Part shown: one piece after another, positions 30,327 through 34,279 of the stretch
Layout: every line of letters begins with the position of its first letter
How positions within the stretch are numbered: position 1 is the stretch's first letter
Program-made: the position numbers and the translations under genes
The notes under the pieces: generated by a model
The model's database searches: none
What the model was told of the DNA's origin: nothing
Seen by the model: the letters and a program-made list of their open reading frames with translations, nothing else
Source of the DNA: Streptomyces sp. NBC_01298
GTDB taxonomy: Bacteria > Actinomycetota > Actinomycetes > Streptomycetales > Streptomycetaceae
DNA: 64,000 bases
Reading direction: 5' to 3'
Assembly: GCF_035978755.1 (NCBI RefSeq)
Contig: NZ_CP108414.1
Span: forward strand, 5,580,001-5,644,000

Positions 30327-31631
30327 TCAGCGGACCTCGATGAACTCCTCCGCGGCCCGCACCGCCCGCTCCGCCGGAGCGACTGCGGCGTGCCCGACGG
30401 CCACCGCCCCCATCGGGTCCCAGTCCTCCGGAAGGCCGAGCACCTTGCGCACCACGTCCCGGCAGAACATCGTCGAGGACACCCACGCGGAGCCCAGCCG
30501 TTCCCCGGCCAGCGCGACCAGGAAGTTCTGCACGCCCGCGCCCATCGCGACGACGAACATCTCCCGTTCCGCGGCGTCCCGCCGCGCGTGCCCGTAGTCG
30601 TGCGCGCCGTCCGTGACCAGGCAGGGCACCACCAGATAGGGCGCGGCCCGCAGGACGTCGCCCCGCCGGACCCGCTTCGCGACGGACTCCTCGGACTTCC
30701 CGTCCCGCCGCAGGTCCTCGATCCAGGCGTCCCGCATCGCGTCCAGCAGCTCCAGCCGCGCGCCCGCCGACTCCAGCAGCACGAACCGCCACGGCGTCGT
30801 GTGGTGCGGCGCCGGGGCCGTCACGGCCGCCGCGACCGCGCGGCGCACCGCGCCCGGGTCCACCGGCTCGGACGTGAAGGCCCGTACGGTACGCCGCTGC
30901 GTCACCGCCTCCCGTACCGCCTCCGAGGTGCCCAGCCGGAACATGTCGTCGGCCGGCGAGCGCACCAGGTCCACGGCCGAGGAGCCCTCGCCCAGAAGGT
31001 GCGCCAGCCCGCGGACCACCGCCACCGGCAGGCCCTCCGCCTTGCCCTTGACCAGGTCGCCCGCGGCGGCCAGCTCGTCGGCGGTCGCCACGACCGTCGC
31101 GCTCAGCGGGTTCCCGTGGGCGTCGGTGCCGCCGCGCAGGTCGTCCAGGACCCGGACGCCGGCCGAGCCGATGGCCACGTCGGTGAGCCCGGTGCGCCAC
31201 GGCCGCCCGAAGGTGTCCGTCACGATCACCCCCACGTCCACGCCGAGCAGCTCCCGCAGCCCGGCCCGGATCGAGGCGGCCGAGGCGTCGGGGTCCTCGG
31301 GCAGCAGCAGGACGGTGCCGGCCTCGGTGTTCGAGGCGTCGACCCCGGCCGCGGCCATGACCAGCCCCTGCCGGTTCTCCACGATCCGCAGCGTCCCCCG
31401 GCGCGCGACGACCCGTACGGTCTCGGCGTCGATCGCCTCCTCGCGCGAATCGGCGCGGACGATCCGGCCCTCCGCCTTGGAGACGATCTTCGAGGTGACG
31501 AGCAGGATGTCGCCGTCCCGCAGCTCCGGCCCGGCGGCAGCGATCAGTGCCGCCAGGTCGTCGCCGGGCCCTACCTCGGGGATCCCGCCGATGGCCCGGA
31601 CCTCGTACGAGGGCCCGTGCGGGGCGGTCAC
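30327..31631 (-). CDS. fbiB: Coenzyme F420 gamma-glutamyl ligase / FMN reductase fusion (FbiB)
   Basis: The 434-residue bifunctional F420 enzyme found in actinobacteria. The N-terminal CofE domain (about 1-245) has [29 protein letters not shown] and [11 protein letters not shown] and adds glutamates to F420-0. The C-terminal nitroreductase-like FMN domain (about 250-434; [39 protein letters not shown]) reduces the dehydro precursor in the mycobacterial pathway. The GTG start overlaps the fbiA stop (GTGA), so the pair is translationally coupled. Confidence 0.95.
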
Positions 31632-32587
31632 CGGGAGGCCTCCGCCAGTTCCAGCGCGGCCCGCGCCATGTCCGCGGTGGCGGCCAGGTCGGTCATCATC
31701 AGCGGGACCGCCCGGCAGGTGATGCCGGCGGCCTCCACCGCGGTGACGGCGTCCGCGTCGGCGGTGTCGACGAGCCAGCCGTCGAGCAGTTCGGTGCCGT
31801 AGTGCAGGGCGACGGCCGCGGCGGTGGACTCGACGCCCACGGCGGCCAGCACCTTGTCGGCCATCCCGCGCACGGGGGCGCCCCCGACGATGGGGGAGAG
31901 CCCCACCACGGGCGCCGTGGCGGCGGCCACGGCCTCGCGGATGCCGGGTACGGAGAGGATGGTGCCCACCGACACCACGGGGTTCGACGGCGGGAAGAGG
32001 ATCACGTCGGCGGCCGCGATGGCCTCCAGGACGCCGGGCGCGGGCTTGGCCTGCTCGGCGCCCACGGGTACGACGGCCTCGGCGTCCACCGCGGCACGCA
32101 TGCGGACCCAGTACTCCTGGAAGTGGATGACCCGGCGCTCGCCGCTCTGGGAATCGGTGATCGCGACGTGGGTCTCGACCCGGTCGTCGGACATGGGGAG
32201 CAGCCGGACCCCGGGCTGCCAGCGGTCGCAGAGGGCCTCGGTGACGGCGCTGAGCGGGTAGCCCGCACCGAGCATCTGCGTACGGACGATGTGGGTGGCG
32301 AAATCGCGGTCACCGAGGCCGAACCAGGTCGGTCCGACCCCGTACGCGGCGAGTTCCTCCTTGACGGTGAAGGACTCGTCGGTGCGGCCCCAGCCCTGGT
32401 CCTCGTTGATGCCACCGCCGAGGGTGTACATCACGGTGTCCAGGTCGGGGCAGACCTTGAGCCCGAACAGGTGAATGTCGTCACCGGTGTTGCCGATGAC
32501 GGTGATGTCCGCGTCGGGAACCGCGGACTGGAGACCTCGGAGGAAACGGGCGCCGCCGATGCCGCCGGCCAGAACAACAATGCGCAT
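31628..32587 (-). CDS. fbiA: F420 biosynthesis phospholactate/phosphoenolpyruvate transferase (FbiA/CofD)
   Basis: Joins the activated C3 acid (lactyl- or enolpyruvyl-diphospho-guanosine) to the deazaflavin Fo, giving (dehydro)F420-0. The 319-residue product opens with [16 protein letters not shown] and carries the CofD signatures [31 protein letters not shown] and [15 protein letters not shown]. It overlaps fbiB downstream and lies 53 bases after cysteine dioxygenase on the same strand. No clear ribosome site precedes the ATG at 32587. Confidence 0.96.
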
Positions 32588-32640
32588 ACCGCGAAGTCTG
32601 TCAGGCGGCGTCGGGGATCAGCCGGACAGGGCGCCGGTGA

Positions 32641-33189
32641 TCAGACGGACGCGGCCTCGGGCCGGGCCGGGGAGCAGCTGTGCATCGGCATCTGGGTCAG
32701 GCCGGGGAAGTACACGTGCAGGCTGACGGCGCCTTCGAGGCTGTCGTTCTGCACCTCGTGGGCGTACCCGGGGGCGAAGACGCGCTGGGAGCCGGCGCCG
32801 AGCGCGAGCCGGCCGCGGGCGGTGTGCTCGGTCAGTTCGCCGTCCAGGACGGTCAGGACGCCGGAGGAGGCGCCGTGGTCGTGCAGGCCGCTGCCCTGGC
32901 CGGGGACCCAGCTGAGCAGCCAGACCTCGTAGCCGGGGCCGGTGCGCAGCCGGTGGTACCAGCGGGTCGTGGCGTCGTACCGGACCAGGTGCTCCCACTC
33001 GGAGCGGTCGGCGGCGATGGAGCGCGCGAGGCCCACGAACTCGGCGACGGTGGCCGGGTGCTCGCGGGCGGGCTGCAGCAGGTGCTGGACGGAGAGGATG
33101 TCGCCGGCGATCTGGAGGTCGCTCTCGACGGGCGCCGGGGCGACGGCTGCGGCGGTGGGGGTGGCGTTCAGGGTGCTGGTGCTGTTCAT
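32641..33189 (-). CDS. Cysteine dioxygenase (cupin)
   Basis: Oxidises cysteine to cysteine sulfinate with O2 at a mononuclear iron. The 182-residue product shows the cupin metal ligands H103 and H105 (GSGLHDHGASSG) and H144 (FAPGYAHEVQN), in the WVPGQGSGLHDHG context typical of bacterial enzymes. GAGGA (33198-33202) is eight bases upstream of the ATG. The gene has a 173-base leader that encodes a polycysteine peptide (33276-33362) and competing hairpins, so it is probably controlled by cysteine supply. It may share a transcript with fbiA-fbiB. Confidence 0.93.
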   Translation of the reverse strand: MNSTSTLNATPTAAAVAPAPVESDLQIAGDILSVQHLLQPAREHPATVAEFVGLARSIAADRSEWEHLVRYDATTRWYHRLRTGPGYEVWLLSWVPGQGSGLHDHGASSGVLTVLDGELTEHTARGRLALGAGSQRVFAPGYAHEVQNDSLEGAVSLHVYFPGLTQMPMHSCSPARPEAASV

Positions 33190-33244
33190 CGGGGGGTTCC
33201 TCGACGGATGTCAGTCGTGCGGCGGTTGCTGTGGGGGGCGAGCT

Positions 33245-33269
33245 GGAGCTCAGGGGAGCCGAAGCTCCC
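33245..33269 (-). promoter_or_regulatory. Mutually exclusive hairpins in the cysteine dioxygenase leader
   Basis: Read on the minus strand, GGGAGC-TTCG-GCTCCC (33269-33254) makes a stable UUCG-tetraloop hairpin six bases after the leader-peptide stop. An alternative stem pairs GGAGCT (33268-33263) with AGCTCC (33250-33245). The two share a strand and cannot coexist, as in attenuators. C-rich, G-poor RNA follows before the cysteine dioxygenase ribosome site, compatible with Rho loading. Confidence 0.6.
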
Positions 33270-33275
33270 GAGGCA

Positions 33276-33362
33276 TCAACAGCTGCAACAGCAACAGCGA
33301 ACCTGGGCAGCGCACAGGAACCCACGAATGGGGGTCCGGGTGACTGCCGAGAGCGCTGACAT
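33276..33362 (-). CDS. Polycysteine leader peptide (28 residues) of cysteine dioxygenase
   Basis: A 28-codon frame, ATG at 33362 to TGA at 33276-33278, reading MSALSAVTRTPIRGFLCAAQ followed by VRCCCCSC. Six of its last twelve residues are cysteine and the tract abuts the stop. No ribosome site precedes the ATG; instead a promoter (33370-33399) would place the transcription start at or next to the A of ATG, so the frame is leaderless. In mycobacteria, leaderless polycysteine short ORFs act as cysteine-responsive attenuators. Here the downstream gene degrades cysteine. The reading was checked codon by codon; translation itself is inferred. Confidence 0.75.
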   Translation of the reverse strand: MSALSAVTRTPIRGFLCAAQVRCCCCSC

Positions 33363-33369
33363 GCGTACA

Positions 33370-33399
33370 AGAAGACCCGGTGGGGGGTCGGACTGTCAA
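33370..33399 (-). promoter_or_regulatory. Promoter of the leader peptide and cysteine dioxygenase
   Basis: On the minus strand a consensus -35 TTGACA (33399-33394) is followed after 18 bases by TCTTCT (33375-33370), a weak -10. The seventh base downstream ends exactly before the ATG at 33362, predicting a leaderless transcript. Confidence 0.55.
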
Positions 33400-33849
33400 C
33401 CCAATGTCCGATTTGGTAGAAAAGTTTCACCTCATCCGGTTACCGTGCCCGGAGAAAGGTTTGTGCAGTCGGTACCAGGGGATGTGGCGCTGCGAGTCGC
33501 GCCGCAGCTCGCTGTGGCGGCTCTCAAACCCGTAAAGCCGTACGACGTCCTTCTGTGGCTGAAATGTGATCTGCGCCGCTTCTTCGGCTGGATCGGAACC
33601 CCACCACAGAGTGACGCGTCGGCTACGGGGGAGGGAGTGCCGGTTGTGGCGCCTGTGGCATGTGTCACGATTTTTGGCGATTTGAACACTTTCTGCATAG
33701 GCTTGGTTCCGCAGAGTGAATAAGGGGCCCAATAGCAGATCTCGGCTTGACTGCGCCGGAGCCCCGCACTTGTAATTTCACTCGTGTCGTTACGTAGCGA
33801 TGAGTGACGGCATGACCACGGGGACGCACAGACAGAGCGAGGGGCGCAC
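33400..33849. promoter_or_regulatory. Long upstream region of whiB
   Basis: About 450 bases lie between the cysteine dioxygenase promoter and whiB. The stretch is notably less GC-rich than its surroundings (for example 33660-33725 and 33770-33800). No supported gene lies here. whiB genes are known to have developmentally controlled promoters, so this region probably contains them; I cannot assign individual promoters or regulator boxes from sequence. Confidence 0.5.
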
Positions 33850-34113
33850 ATGACCGAGCTGGTTCAGGAACTGCTGGTCGAGGAGGCGGACGAAGAGCTC
33901 GGTTGGCAGGAGCGTGCTCTCTGCGCCCAGACCGACCCCGAGTCCTTCTTTCCCGAAAAGGGCGGCTCGACCCGCGAGGCGAAGAAGGTCTGCCTCGCCT
34001 GCGAGGTCCGCTCCGAATGCCTGGAGTACGCACTCGCCAACGACGAGCGATTCGGCATCTGGGGCGGCCTGTCCGAGCGCGAGCGGCGACGCCTGAAGAA
34101 GGCCGCCGTCTGA
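33850..34113 (+). CDS. whiB: WhiB sporulation regulator (iron-sulfur Wbl protein)
   Basis: An 87-residue Wbl transcription factor that binds a 4Fe-4S cluster through C25, C48, C51 and C57 (pattern C...CLACEVRSEC). The G(I)WGG turn is at 69-73 and a basic C-terminal helix (SERERRRLKKAAV) contacts DNA. The length and sequence match S. coelicolor WhiB, which works with WhiA and sigma-WhiG in sporulation septation. Conserved context supports this: fbiA/fbiB on one side and manB/manA on the other, as around mycobacterial whiB2. GAGGGG lies five bases before the ATG. Confidence 0.96.
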   Translation: MTELVQELLVEEADEELGWQERALCAQTDPESFFPEKGGSTREAKKVCLACEVRSECLEYALANDERFGIWGGLSERERRRLKKAAV

Positions 34114-34150
34114 AGCGCCCTCGGCGCGCACCGAACGGCGCCCACGGAAG

Positions 34151-34279
34151 GGCCCGCGGCAGGGCTCACAGCAGGTCCCGCGGCACGGCCCACGACATAT
34201 CCGGCGGCATATCCGCCGAGATGTCCAGCGGCAGACCCGACGGCACATCCGACGGCAACCCCGACGGCATATCCGACGG
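34151..34279. repeat. 12-bp tandem array downstream of whiB
   Basis: Seven units with consensus CATATCCGACGG run from 34196 to 34279. More degenerate 12-bp units (such as GGCCCGCGGCAG) extend the array back to about 34151. All six frames stay open because 12 is a multiple of three, giving spurious four-residue-periodic proteins on both strands. The 436-base gap between whiB and the glycosyltransferase otherwise shows no supported gene. Confidence 0.8.

Follow-up and report, generated by a model that had tools for sequence, protein, structure and literature searches.

The closest known counterparts of the element described here are mycobacterial attenuators built on leaderless polycysteine short ORFs. 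Canestrari and colleagues are said to have described, in 2020, short ORFs of this sort that begin with a leaderless 5′-AUG, carry Cys codons near the stop and precede cysteine-metabolism genes, and in the mechanism reportedly put forward, stalling of a ribosome within the Cys tract keeps structures that would mask the ribosome-binding site from forming. The locus analysed here shares with these leaders a leaderless-looking short ORF, Cys codons near its stop and a cysteine-metabolism gene downstream. It differs from them in that it lies in other bacteria, that the gene it precedes encodes an enzyme that degrades cysteine, cysteine dioxygenase (CDO), and that genes for F420 biosynthesis are linked to it. 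Moreover, in a group of 75 Streptomyces loci the Cys codons are predicted to pair with the CDO start, and the codon mostly used is UGU, against the habit of the neighbouring genes. Exposure of a start by a stalled ribosome is also known from the erm-type translational attenuators, where a drug-dependent nascent-peptide arrest on the leader exposes a hidden downstream start; here the presumed signal would instead be the tRNA supply.

Cys leaders were predicted by Seliverstov et al. (2005) for cys/cbs genes of Mycobacterium, P. acnes and B. longum (PMC1262725). As at the present locus, Cys runs lie near the stop of a short ORF and a terminator was not found; those leaders belong to Cys-supply genes, and the accessible sections of the paper describe neither pairing with a gene start nor CDO or a Streptomyces cysteine leader (PMC1262725). 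A mycobacterial gene of the cysA2 type is stated to carry a Cys leader as well (PMC4633059, in the accessible text). RNA-seq of 5′ ends in S. lividans yielded eight leader peptides, among them leuL, trpL, ilvL, metL, thrL and alaL, seven of which were called leaderless; according to the sections available, none of the eight is for cysteine or precedes CDO, and they are discussed as transcription attenuators with a terminator present in some only (PMC8079986). The metL leader, MSTTSDRTPATEATTTPGARCMCRRMCAF, has three Cys near its end (PMC8079986, Table 4) and might sense cysteine besides methionine. Within the accessible text of the open-licence literature searched, no description of a CDO gene preceded by a poly-Cys leader was found. 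Leaderless poly-Cys attenuation is already known, and what is new here is the UGU bias of the leader Cys codons together with their complementarity to the CDO start.

The CDO locus and its leader

The window, by which we mean the whole stretch of 64,000 nt of Streptomyces sp. NBC_01298 DNA that was analysed, contains the features listed in Table 1. The CDO activity is predicted: the protein carries a CDO_I domain (70.6 bits, above the Pfam cut-off), and its PDB relatives and the source annotations bear the name cysteine dioxygenase; an NCBIfam search with it returned no family. The same type of search gave no family match for the small divergent gene, which we take to be WhiB-like. The leader ORF sits between this gene and CDO, whose ATG is at 33189 on the minus strand. 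Among the 80 named Streptomyces loci, all 80 have a homologue of the small gene divergent from CDO and all 80 have cofD 3′ of CDO on the same strand, with CDO-cofD gaps of 13-187 nt in the 79 that were measured. CDO and cofD/fbiA probably form one operon, and since these gaps are short and fbiB overlaps cofD in the window, the cysteine leader may influence F420 synthesis.

Table 1. Coordinates of features at the CDO locus, numbered within the window
Feature	Position	Strand	Basis
fbiB/cofE (F420)	30327..31631	-	overlaps cofD end
cofD/fbiA (F420)	31628..32587	-	downstream of CDO, same strand
Cysteine dioxygenase (CDO), CDO_I, PF05995	32641..33189	-	profile match and named relatives
CDO start AUG AAC AGC, proposed target of Cys-codon pairing	33181..33189	-	AACAGC at codons 2-3 in relatives
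Predicted hairpin CGUCG...CGAUG enclosing GAGGA and AUG of CDO	33187..33206	-	clade alignment
Shine-Dalgarno GAGGA of CDO	33198..33202	-	read from sequence
UTR element ACAGCAAC, complement of GUUGCUGU in the Cys codons	33225..33232	-	RNAalifold, window clade
Predicted hairpin GGGAGC-UUCG-GCUCCC, starting 6 nt past leader stop	33254..33269	-	fold, clade alignment
Cys tract UGU UGC UGU UGC AGC UGU UGA	33276..33296	-	proposed sensor codons and anti-start GCUGUU repeats
Leader ORF MSALSAVTRTPIRGFLCAAQVRCCCCSC and stop, leaderless-looking	33276..33362	-	translation; conserved in relatives
-10-like TCTTCT, 7 nt 5′ of leader ATG	33370..33375	-	read from sequence
-35 TTGACA	33394..33399	-	read from sequence; position fixed in relatives
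Small gene divergent from CDO, presumably WhiB-like	33850..34113	+	Cys residues, context

The first-pass annotation of this DNA had described a 28-codon ORF (33362-33276, minus strand) ending R-C-C-C-C-S-C-stop, and translation reproduces it as a peptide of 28 aa with the C-terminus RCCCCSC. A ribosome site for CDO, also claimed there, is found as GAGGA at 33202-33198. Upstream of the leader, the candidate promoter comprises TTGACA, an 18-nt spacer, TCTTCT and 7 nt before the ATG at 33362. TCTTCT is a poor -10 hexamer, relatives carry hexamers of the TCTCCT/TGTCCT type at this place, and a generic sigma-70 promoter scan made no call at the leader promoter. The run of four Cys codons alone is no proof of anything, since in the 9.7-Mb genome the pattern TGYTGYTGYTGY is matched 62 times, in part by overlapping hits, and its reversed control 77 times. 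A search of positions 32600-34200 against Rfam 15 gave no match with E up to 1, and hence no known riboswitch or leader family.

Conservation of the tract, its frame, the stop and the promoter excludes chance. A first set comprised 110 Streptomyces loci (80 + 30, the window's own included), searched for leaders with at least 3 Cys among the last 12 residues. An ATG ORF of 28-38 aa with a Cys-rich end lies upstream of CDO in 109 of these 110 loci, which are phylogenetically non-independent, L001-L080 and the other sampled genomes possibly overlapping in species. The sole exception, L082 in genome G012, has unrelated upstream DNA and no leader. At L082 foreign-looking DNA is joined just 5′ of the conserved part, together with a stretch that resembles a transposase mosaic end, and the junction is perhaps an assembly chimera. 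A second set, in which 20 of the 28 loci differ from those of the first, has the leader in 28/28. The third set of 30 loci (29 from 16 other genera and one from a divergent Streptomyces, G064) contains it in 28, with a length of 26-51 aa and with all 16 genera represented; L189 is without a leader, L204 is cut by a contig end, and the genome of L189 has another CDO. Except for L212, which has 2, these 28 leaders have 3-8 Cys in their last 16 residues. The N-terminal halves vary widely across genera, as a comparison of MSEQRVHSESLVTELRRAASALCCRCS with MLAEPHVTTRTRRRASCRVALAQNCCCPCRCR illustrates, and the Cys cluster, the stop and the promoter are kept. The alignments across Streptomyces and related species that had been suggested as a check of the tract and its frame have thus come out in its favour.

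The promoter is equally constant. In all 109 Streptomyces leaders the first base of TTGACA is 36 or 37 nt from the ATG, taking for L034 and L046 an in-frame ATG 6 nt upstream as the start, and TTGAC lies 35-37 nt before the start in all 28 leaders of the third set, where the in-frame start having TTGAC at 31-42 nt was chosen. Overall, TTGAC(A) is found 35-37 nt upstream of the start in 137/137 leaders checked, and a Shine-Dalgarno-like sequence before the start in none of the 137. The earlier assignment of a TTGACA/TCTTCT promoter, and of a leader that has no ribosome site, is backed by these counts, which are strong sequence evidence that the transcript begins at the leader ATG. With a Cys cluster conserved in frame near the stop (109/110, 28/28 and 28/30), a cysteine-metabolism gene (CDO) behind it and a short ORF at what appears to be the transcript 5′ end, the locus can be described as a probable attenuator of the leaderless poly-Cys kind, conserved across 17 sampled genera, an assignment that the sequence comparisons support well.

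Cys codons and the start of CDO

The Cys codons of the leader are unusual for their surroundings. Counted over their final 14 codons, the 109 leaders contain 422 UGU and 169 UGC (591 in all), compared with 7 UGU and 234 UGC among the 241 Cys codons of the adjoining cofD in 80 loci. In the window, 46 long frames with high GC3, certainly not all of them genes, contain 193 UGC and 31 UGU, and not one of the 81 Cys codons in four window genes plus the CDO bodies is UGU. The codon preceding UGU ends in GC in 370 of 412 cases, which generates a repeated GCUGUU.

The CDO start AUG AAC AGC complements this repeat. The start region reads AUGAACAGC, with AACAGC as codons 2-3 in 102 of 107 loci (the 110 of the first set minus L082, which has no leader, and L030 and L093, in which no CDO start was called) and in 18 of the 20 new loci. 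According to leader type the 107 loci split into a group of 75 and a clade of 32 that includes the window. In the 75 loci the leader tail is predicted to pair with CDO positions +4 to +14 with a mean probability of 0.78-0.98, and CDO bases +4 to +8 are paired with the tail with a mean probability of 0.92-0.97; for the window clade (32 loci) the mean probability over +4 to +8 is 0.69-0.82.

This complementarity was compared with that of synonymous sequences redrawn using the genes' own codon usage, with a threshold fraction of 0.05. The duplex of the 75 loci is at -22.7 kcal/mol compared with -8.1 kcal/mol when both sides are redrawn (fraction ≤ 0.05 in 75/75) and -14.7 kcal/mol when the leader alone is redrawn (74/75), and so exceeds the codon-matched expectation. 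Redrawing the CDO start alone gave ≤ 0.05 in only 13/75, a weak result attributable to AAC and AGC being common codons anyway. Pairing in the window clade is weaker than in the 75 loci (-15.0 compared with -9.6 for both sides redrawn), and the fraction is ≤ 0.05 in 10/32 loci for both sides, 4/32 for the leader and 2/32 for the start. For the window alone the duplex is at -18.5, with fractions of 0.05 (both sides), 0.45 (leader) and 0.06 (start), and synonymous leaders pair equally well (-19.1 compared with the observed -18.5). In L103 and L109 a changed CDO start, AUGGACAGC, is matched by a change of the leader to GCUGUCC, and one pair of the helix in the 75 loci is U-G in 53, C-G in 13, U-A in 4 and non-standard in 5; the pairs being nearly invariant, true co-variation is thin. 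The codon-matched comparison points to a strong RNA-level constraint on the Cys tract in the 75 loci.

UGU is also favoured in the other genera, where it accounts for 86 of 120 leader Cys codons and where pairing of the leader with the CDO start is inconsistent (AACAGC opens CDO in 2/28 loci and GUGCACCGC in 7/28). Pairing is therefore not the sole reason for UGU, and slow decoding or another partner may contribute to the preference.

Ribosome position and the direction of the proposed switch

We propose that the Cys codons make expression responsive to cysteine limitation, in a cysteine-sensing translational attenuator that is on when Cys-tRNA is scarce and whose Cys codons are antisense to the CDO start; on balance the evidence tips slightly towards this reading. 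With the A of its ATG as the first transcribed base, the leader would be translated immediately, without a Shine-Dalgarno site. The Cys codons would be the sensor, the ribosome pausing there when Cys-tRNA is short. As long as no ribosome occupies the tract, the Cys-codon RNA with its repeated GCUGUU, antisense to the CDO start region, would pair with the first CDO codons and translation would be held down. Pausing on the Cys codons would expose the CDO start and so allow expression of CDO and of the cofD-fbiB genes that follow.

The effect of ribosome position was modelled by masking the footprint and computing the energy needed to open the CDO start, a calculation that ignores the kinetics of co-transcriptional folding. 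Over the 107 loci this opening energy is 8.4 with the Cys codons free and 3.5 when the RNA is free only from 10 nt past the stop. For 25 of the 75 loci it is 10.5 without a ribosome, 10.1 with a ribosome 8 codons before the tract, 4.0, 3.2 and 3.1 with a ribosome on the first, second and third Cys, 4.4 on the last Cys and 5.8 on the stop. Given the drop from 10.5 to 3.1-4.0, a ribosome on the Cys codons is predicted to expose the CDO start. The new loci behave similarly: in 15 of the 20 (the omitted five have leaders beginning MS) the energy is 9.5 with no ribosome, 9.1 upstream of the tract, 4.4 on the first Cys, 3.1 on the second and 4.5 on the stop, and the drop at the first Cys exceeds 2 in 13/15. 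The window clade (16/32 loci) goes from 5.9 without a ribosome to 4.6-5.1 at every position, and since a ribosome 8 codons before the tract gives similar energies, the effect there is not tract-specific. In the window itself there is no change, with 5.0-5.3 at every codon and 8.7-8.9 for the interval from the Shine-Dalgarno sequence to +10. Masking of the start by RNA, relieved once a ribosome occupies the Cys tract, is thus predicted in the 75 loci, weakly so in the window clade and not at all in the window; we infer that the clade works alike. Sequestration of the Shine-Dalgarno sequence under leader control was rejected, its opening energy shifting by less than 0.4 kcal/mol on average with ribosome position in the 107 loci.

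For the 75 loci the model accordingly predicts the ordinary direction, with CDO expressed under Cys-tRNA scarcity. Cysteine breakdown that is switched on by cysteine scarcity makes little obvious sense. We take SCO3035 of S. coelicolor to be CDO, given that whiB is SCO3034 and given the gene order seen here. If that is so, CDO rises together with cysteine-supply genes, which leans weakly against the inverted direction: under H2O2, SCO3035, listed as hypothetical, is up 6.5-fold and SCO5772 8-fold, in an RNA-seq table that includes cysI, cysH, cysN, cysM and cysA as up (PMC4991794, in the sections available). The authors state that all 28 H2O2-up genes lose their response in the HbpS-SenS-SenR mutant (PMC4991794), so that a transcriptional cause of the rise is as possible as the leader.

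Rho-dependent transcription attenuation, in which the C-rich, G-poor stretch would load Rho and leader ribosomes would gate its access to the polymerase, is a possible if rather doubtful alternative. The C-rich RNA before CDO that the first-pass annotation had pointed out is general, the interval between leader and CDO averaging 45.5% C and 24.2% G with C above G in 107/107 loci; the CDO body is less skewed (41% C, 33% G), and with T runs of at least 5 in 3/107 intervals there are few candidates for intrinsic terminators. Rho has been suggested for the mycobacterial cys leaders, weakly according to the authors (PMC1262725), and the change reported for SCO3035 is at the mRNA level (PMC4991794), both as given in the accessible text. 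Yet Rho does not account for why the Cys codons complement the CDO start, the interval can be as short as 75 or as long as 218 nt, and a low-G UTR may simply mean little structure.

Less easily accommodated is the inverted logic claimed in the first-pass annotation, by which ample cysteine would bring the ribosome to the stop, change the RNA and switch CDO on, scarcity keeping it off. This would suit the function of the enzyme, and the annotation had linked it to two mutually exclusive hairpins 6 nt past the stop. In the window such hairpins are indeed predicted, the competing one when the ribosome sits on the stop codon, which might thereby select between them. They are, however, confined to the window clade, as seven other loci folded differently at this place, and they were discarded as the conserved core of the element. 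A further point, the best sequence argument for inversion, comes from the window clade with shorter RNAs: after a stall at the first Cys the final GCUGUU would still be available to AACAGC, and the opening energy of the 32 loci falls from 5.4 with the RNA free from 9 nt before the stop-codon end to 3.9 with it free from 10 nt past. With the full leader folded, however, stop and Cys stalls are equal in the window and average 4.7 and 5.1, respectively, in the clade (16/32 loci). As the model for the 75 loci points the opposite way, opening the start on a Cys stall, and SCO3035, if it is CDO, rises with Cys biosynthesis genes, the inverted logic is unsupported and we consider it unlikely. A restricted version, that at least the window clade is wired oppositely, with cysteine sufficiency placing a ribosome on the stop that masks the last anti-start repeat and turns CDO on, strikes us as quite unlikely too; if true, such wiring would have turned a device for cysteine starvation into a sensor of cysteine excess.

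The window clade has other RNA features of its own. The UTR element has the consensus ACAGCRAC, and in the RNAalifold alignment (29 of the 32 sequences) one co-varying pair with the Cys codons is U-A in 15, U-G in 9 and C-G in 5 and hence standard in 29/29. The pairing was not retained, being no stronger than with synonymous leaders (≤ 0.05 in 0/32, and in 8/32 against shuffled UTRs). Each of the 7 pairs of the CGUCG...CGAUG hairpin is kept in 28 or 29 of the 29 clade sequences.

That the leader merely couples CDO to general leader translation, the Cys codons being kept for RNA pairing and sensing no cysteine, would be in keeping with the strong RNA-level constraint in the 75 loci, but Cys clusters persist in 16 other genera without consistent pairing and in differing surroundings, which renders this reading improbable. 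A classical transcription attenuator, with a GC hairpin and a U run between leader and gene, was set aside, T runs of at least 5 being as rare as noted above and a scan of the window having found no terminator-like site between leader and CDO.

Other cysteine leaders and implications

Besides the leader described here, the window genome has a leaderless-looking Cys leader, MTGNDVRLWRRVHMDLLRYAGCVCRPSC and stop (L247:1205-1292), before its second CDO (PF05995 match at 2656629), with TTGAC 36 nt before the ATG; a rhodanese match lies just beyond that CDO, and the leader end was found in 7 of the 14 loci of the second CDO. Near 5024600 (L268:1207-1297) the leader MAMKHQQADLTKRRAVDLCRVAAMLCRSM, followed by its stop, precedes a tandem-rhodanese gene of the cysA2 type, and near 4016610 (L125, reverse complement 1410-1518) there is a poly-Cys leader rich in UGU that ends in VDLCRRVSAACCCCR and stop. 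The gene behind the latter encodes what we take to be a DAACS-type symporter, possibly a cystine importer. In the fold model the opening energy of the Shine-Dalgarno sequence of the second CDO drops from 9.1 to 5.4-7.7 with a ribosome, and no clear pattern emerged for the rhodanese and symporter leaders. Given these other Cys leaders in the same genome, CDO seems to be part of a cysteine-leader group.

Among 20 distant CDO-like loci (L169-L188), scanned for at least 4 Cys in the last 14 residues, a leader was seen in L169 only. This set includes L186, the second CDO of the window genome, whose 3-Cys leader fell below the scan threshold, L187 and L188, which are second copies in Streptomyces, and L178, which had about 200 nt upstream only. 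L169 lies in G037, a genome from a different family of the same order; its more distant CDO-like gene (about 46% identity) follows an unrelated poly-Cys leader ending in LRRVASALCCCLCCRPSL. With at least 3 Cys required, nothing that we would regard as a leader was seen in L248-L263 apart from L262, a second encounter with the divergent Streptomyces G064. In other actinobacterial families, CDO-like genes have Cys-rich short ORFs nearby in L253 (13-120) and L255 (1162-1201).

The attenuator that we propose poses a puzzle, for it places a cysteine-destroying enzyme under a device expected to answer cysteine shortage. The design it suggests has the sensor codons double as antisense RNA to the regulated start; this would in part account for the odd choice of UGU. 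The position of cofD and fbiB raises the question whether the leader also sets F420 biosynthesis. If the proposal is true, the known range of leaderless poly-Cys attenuators would widen beyond mycobacteria to include the Streptomyces family, and a catabolic gene would be among their targets.
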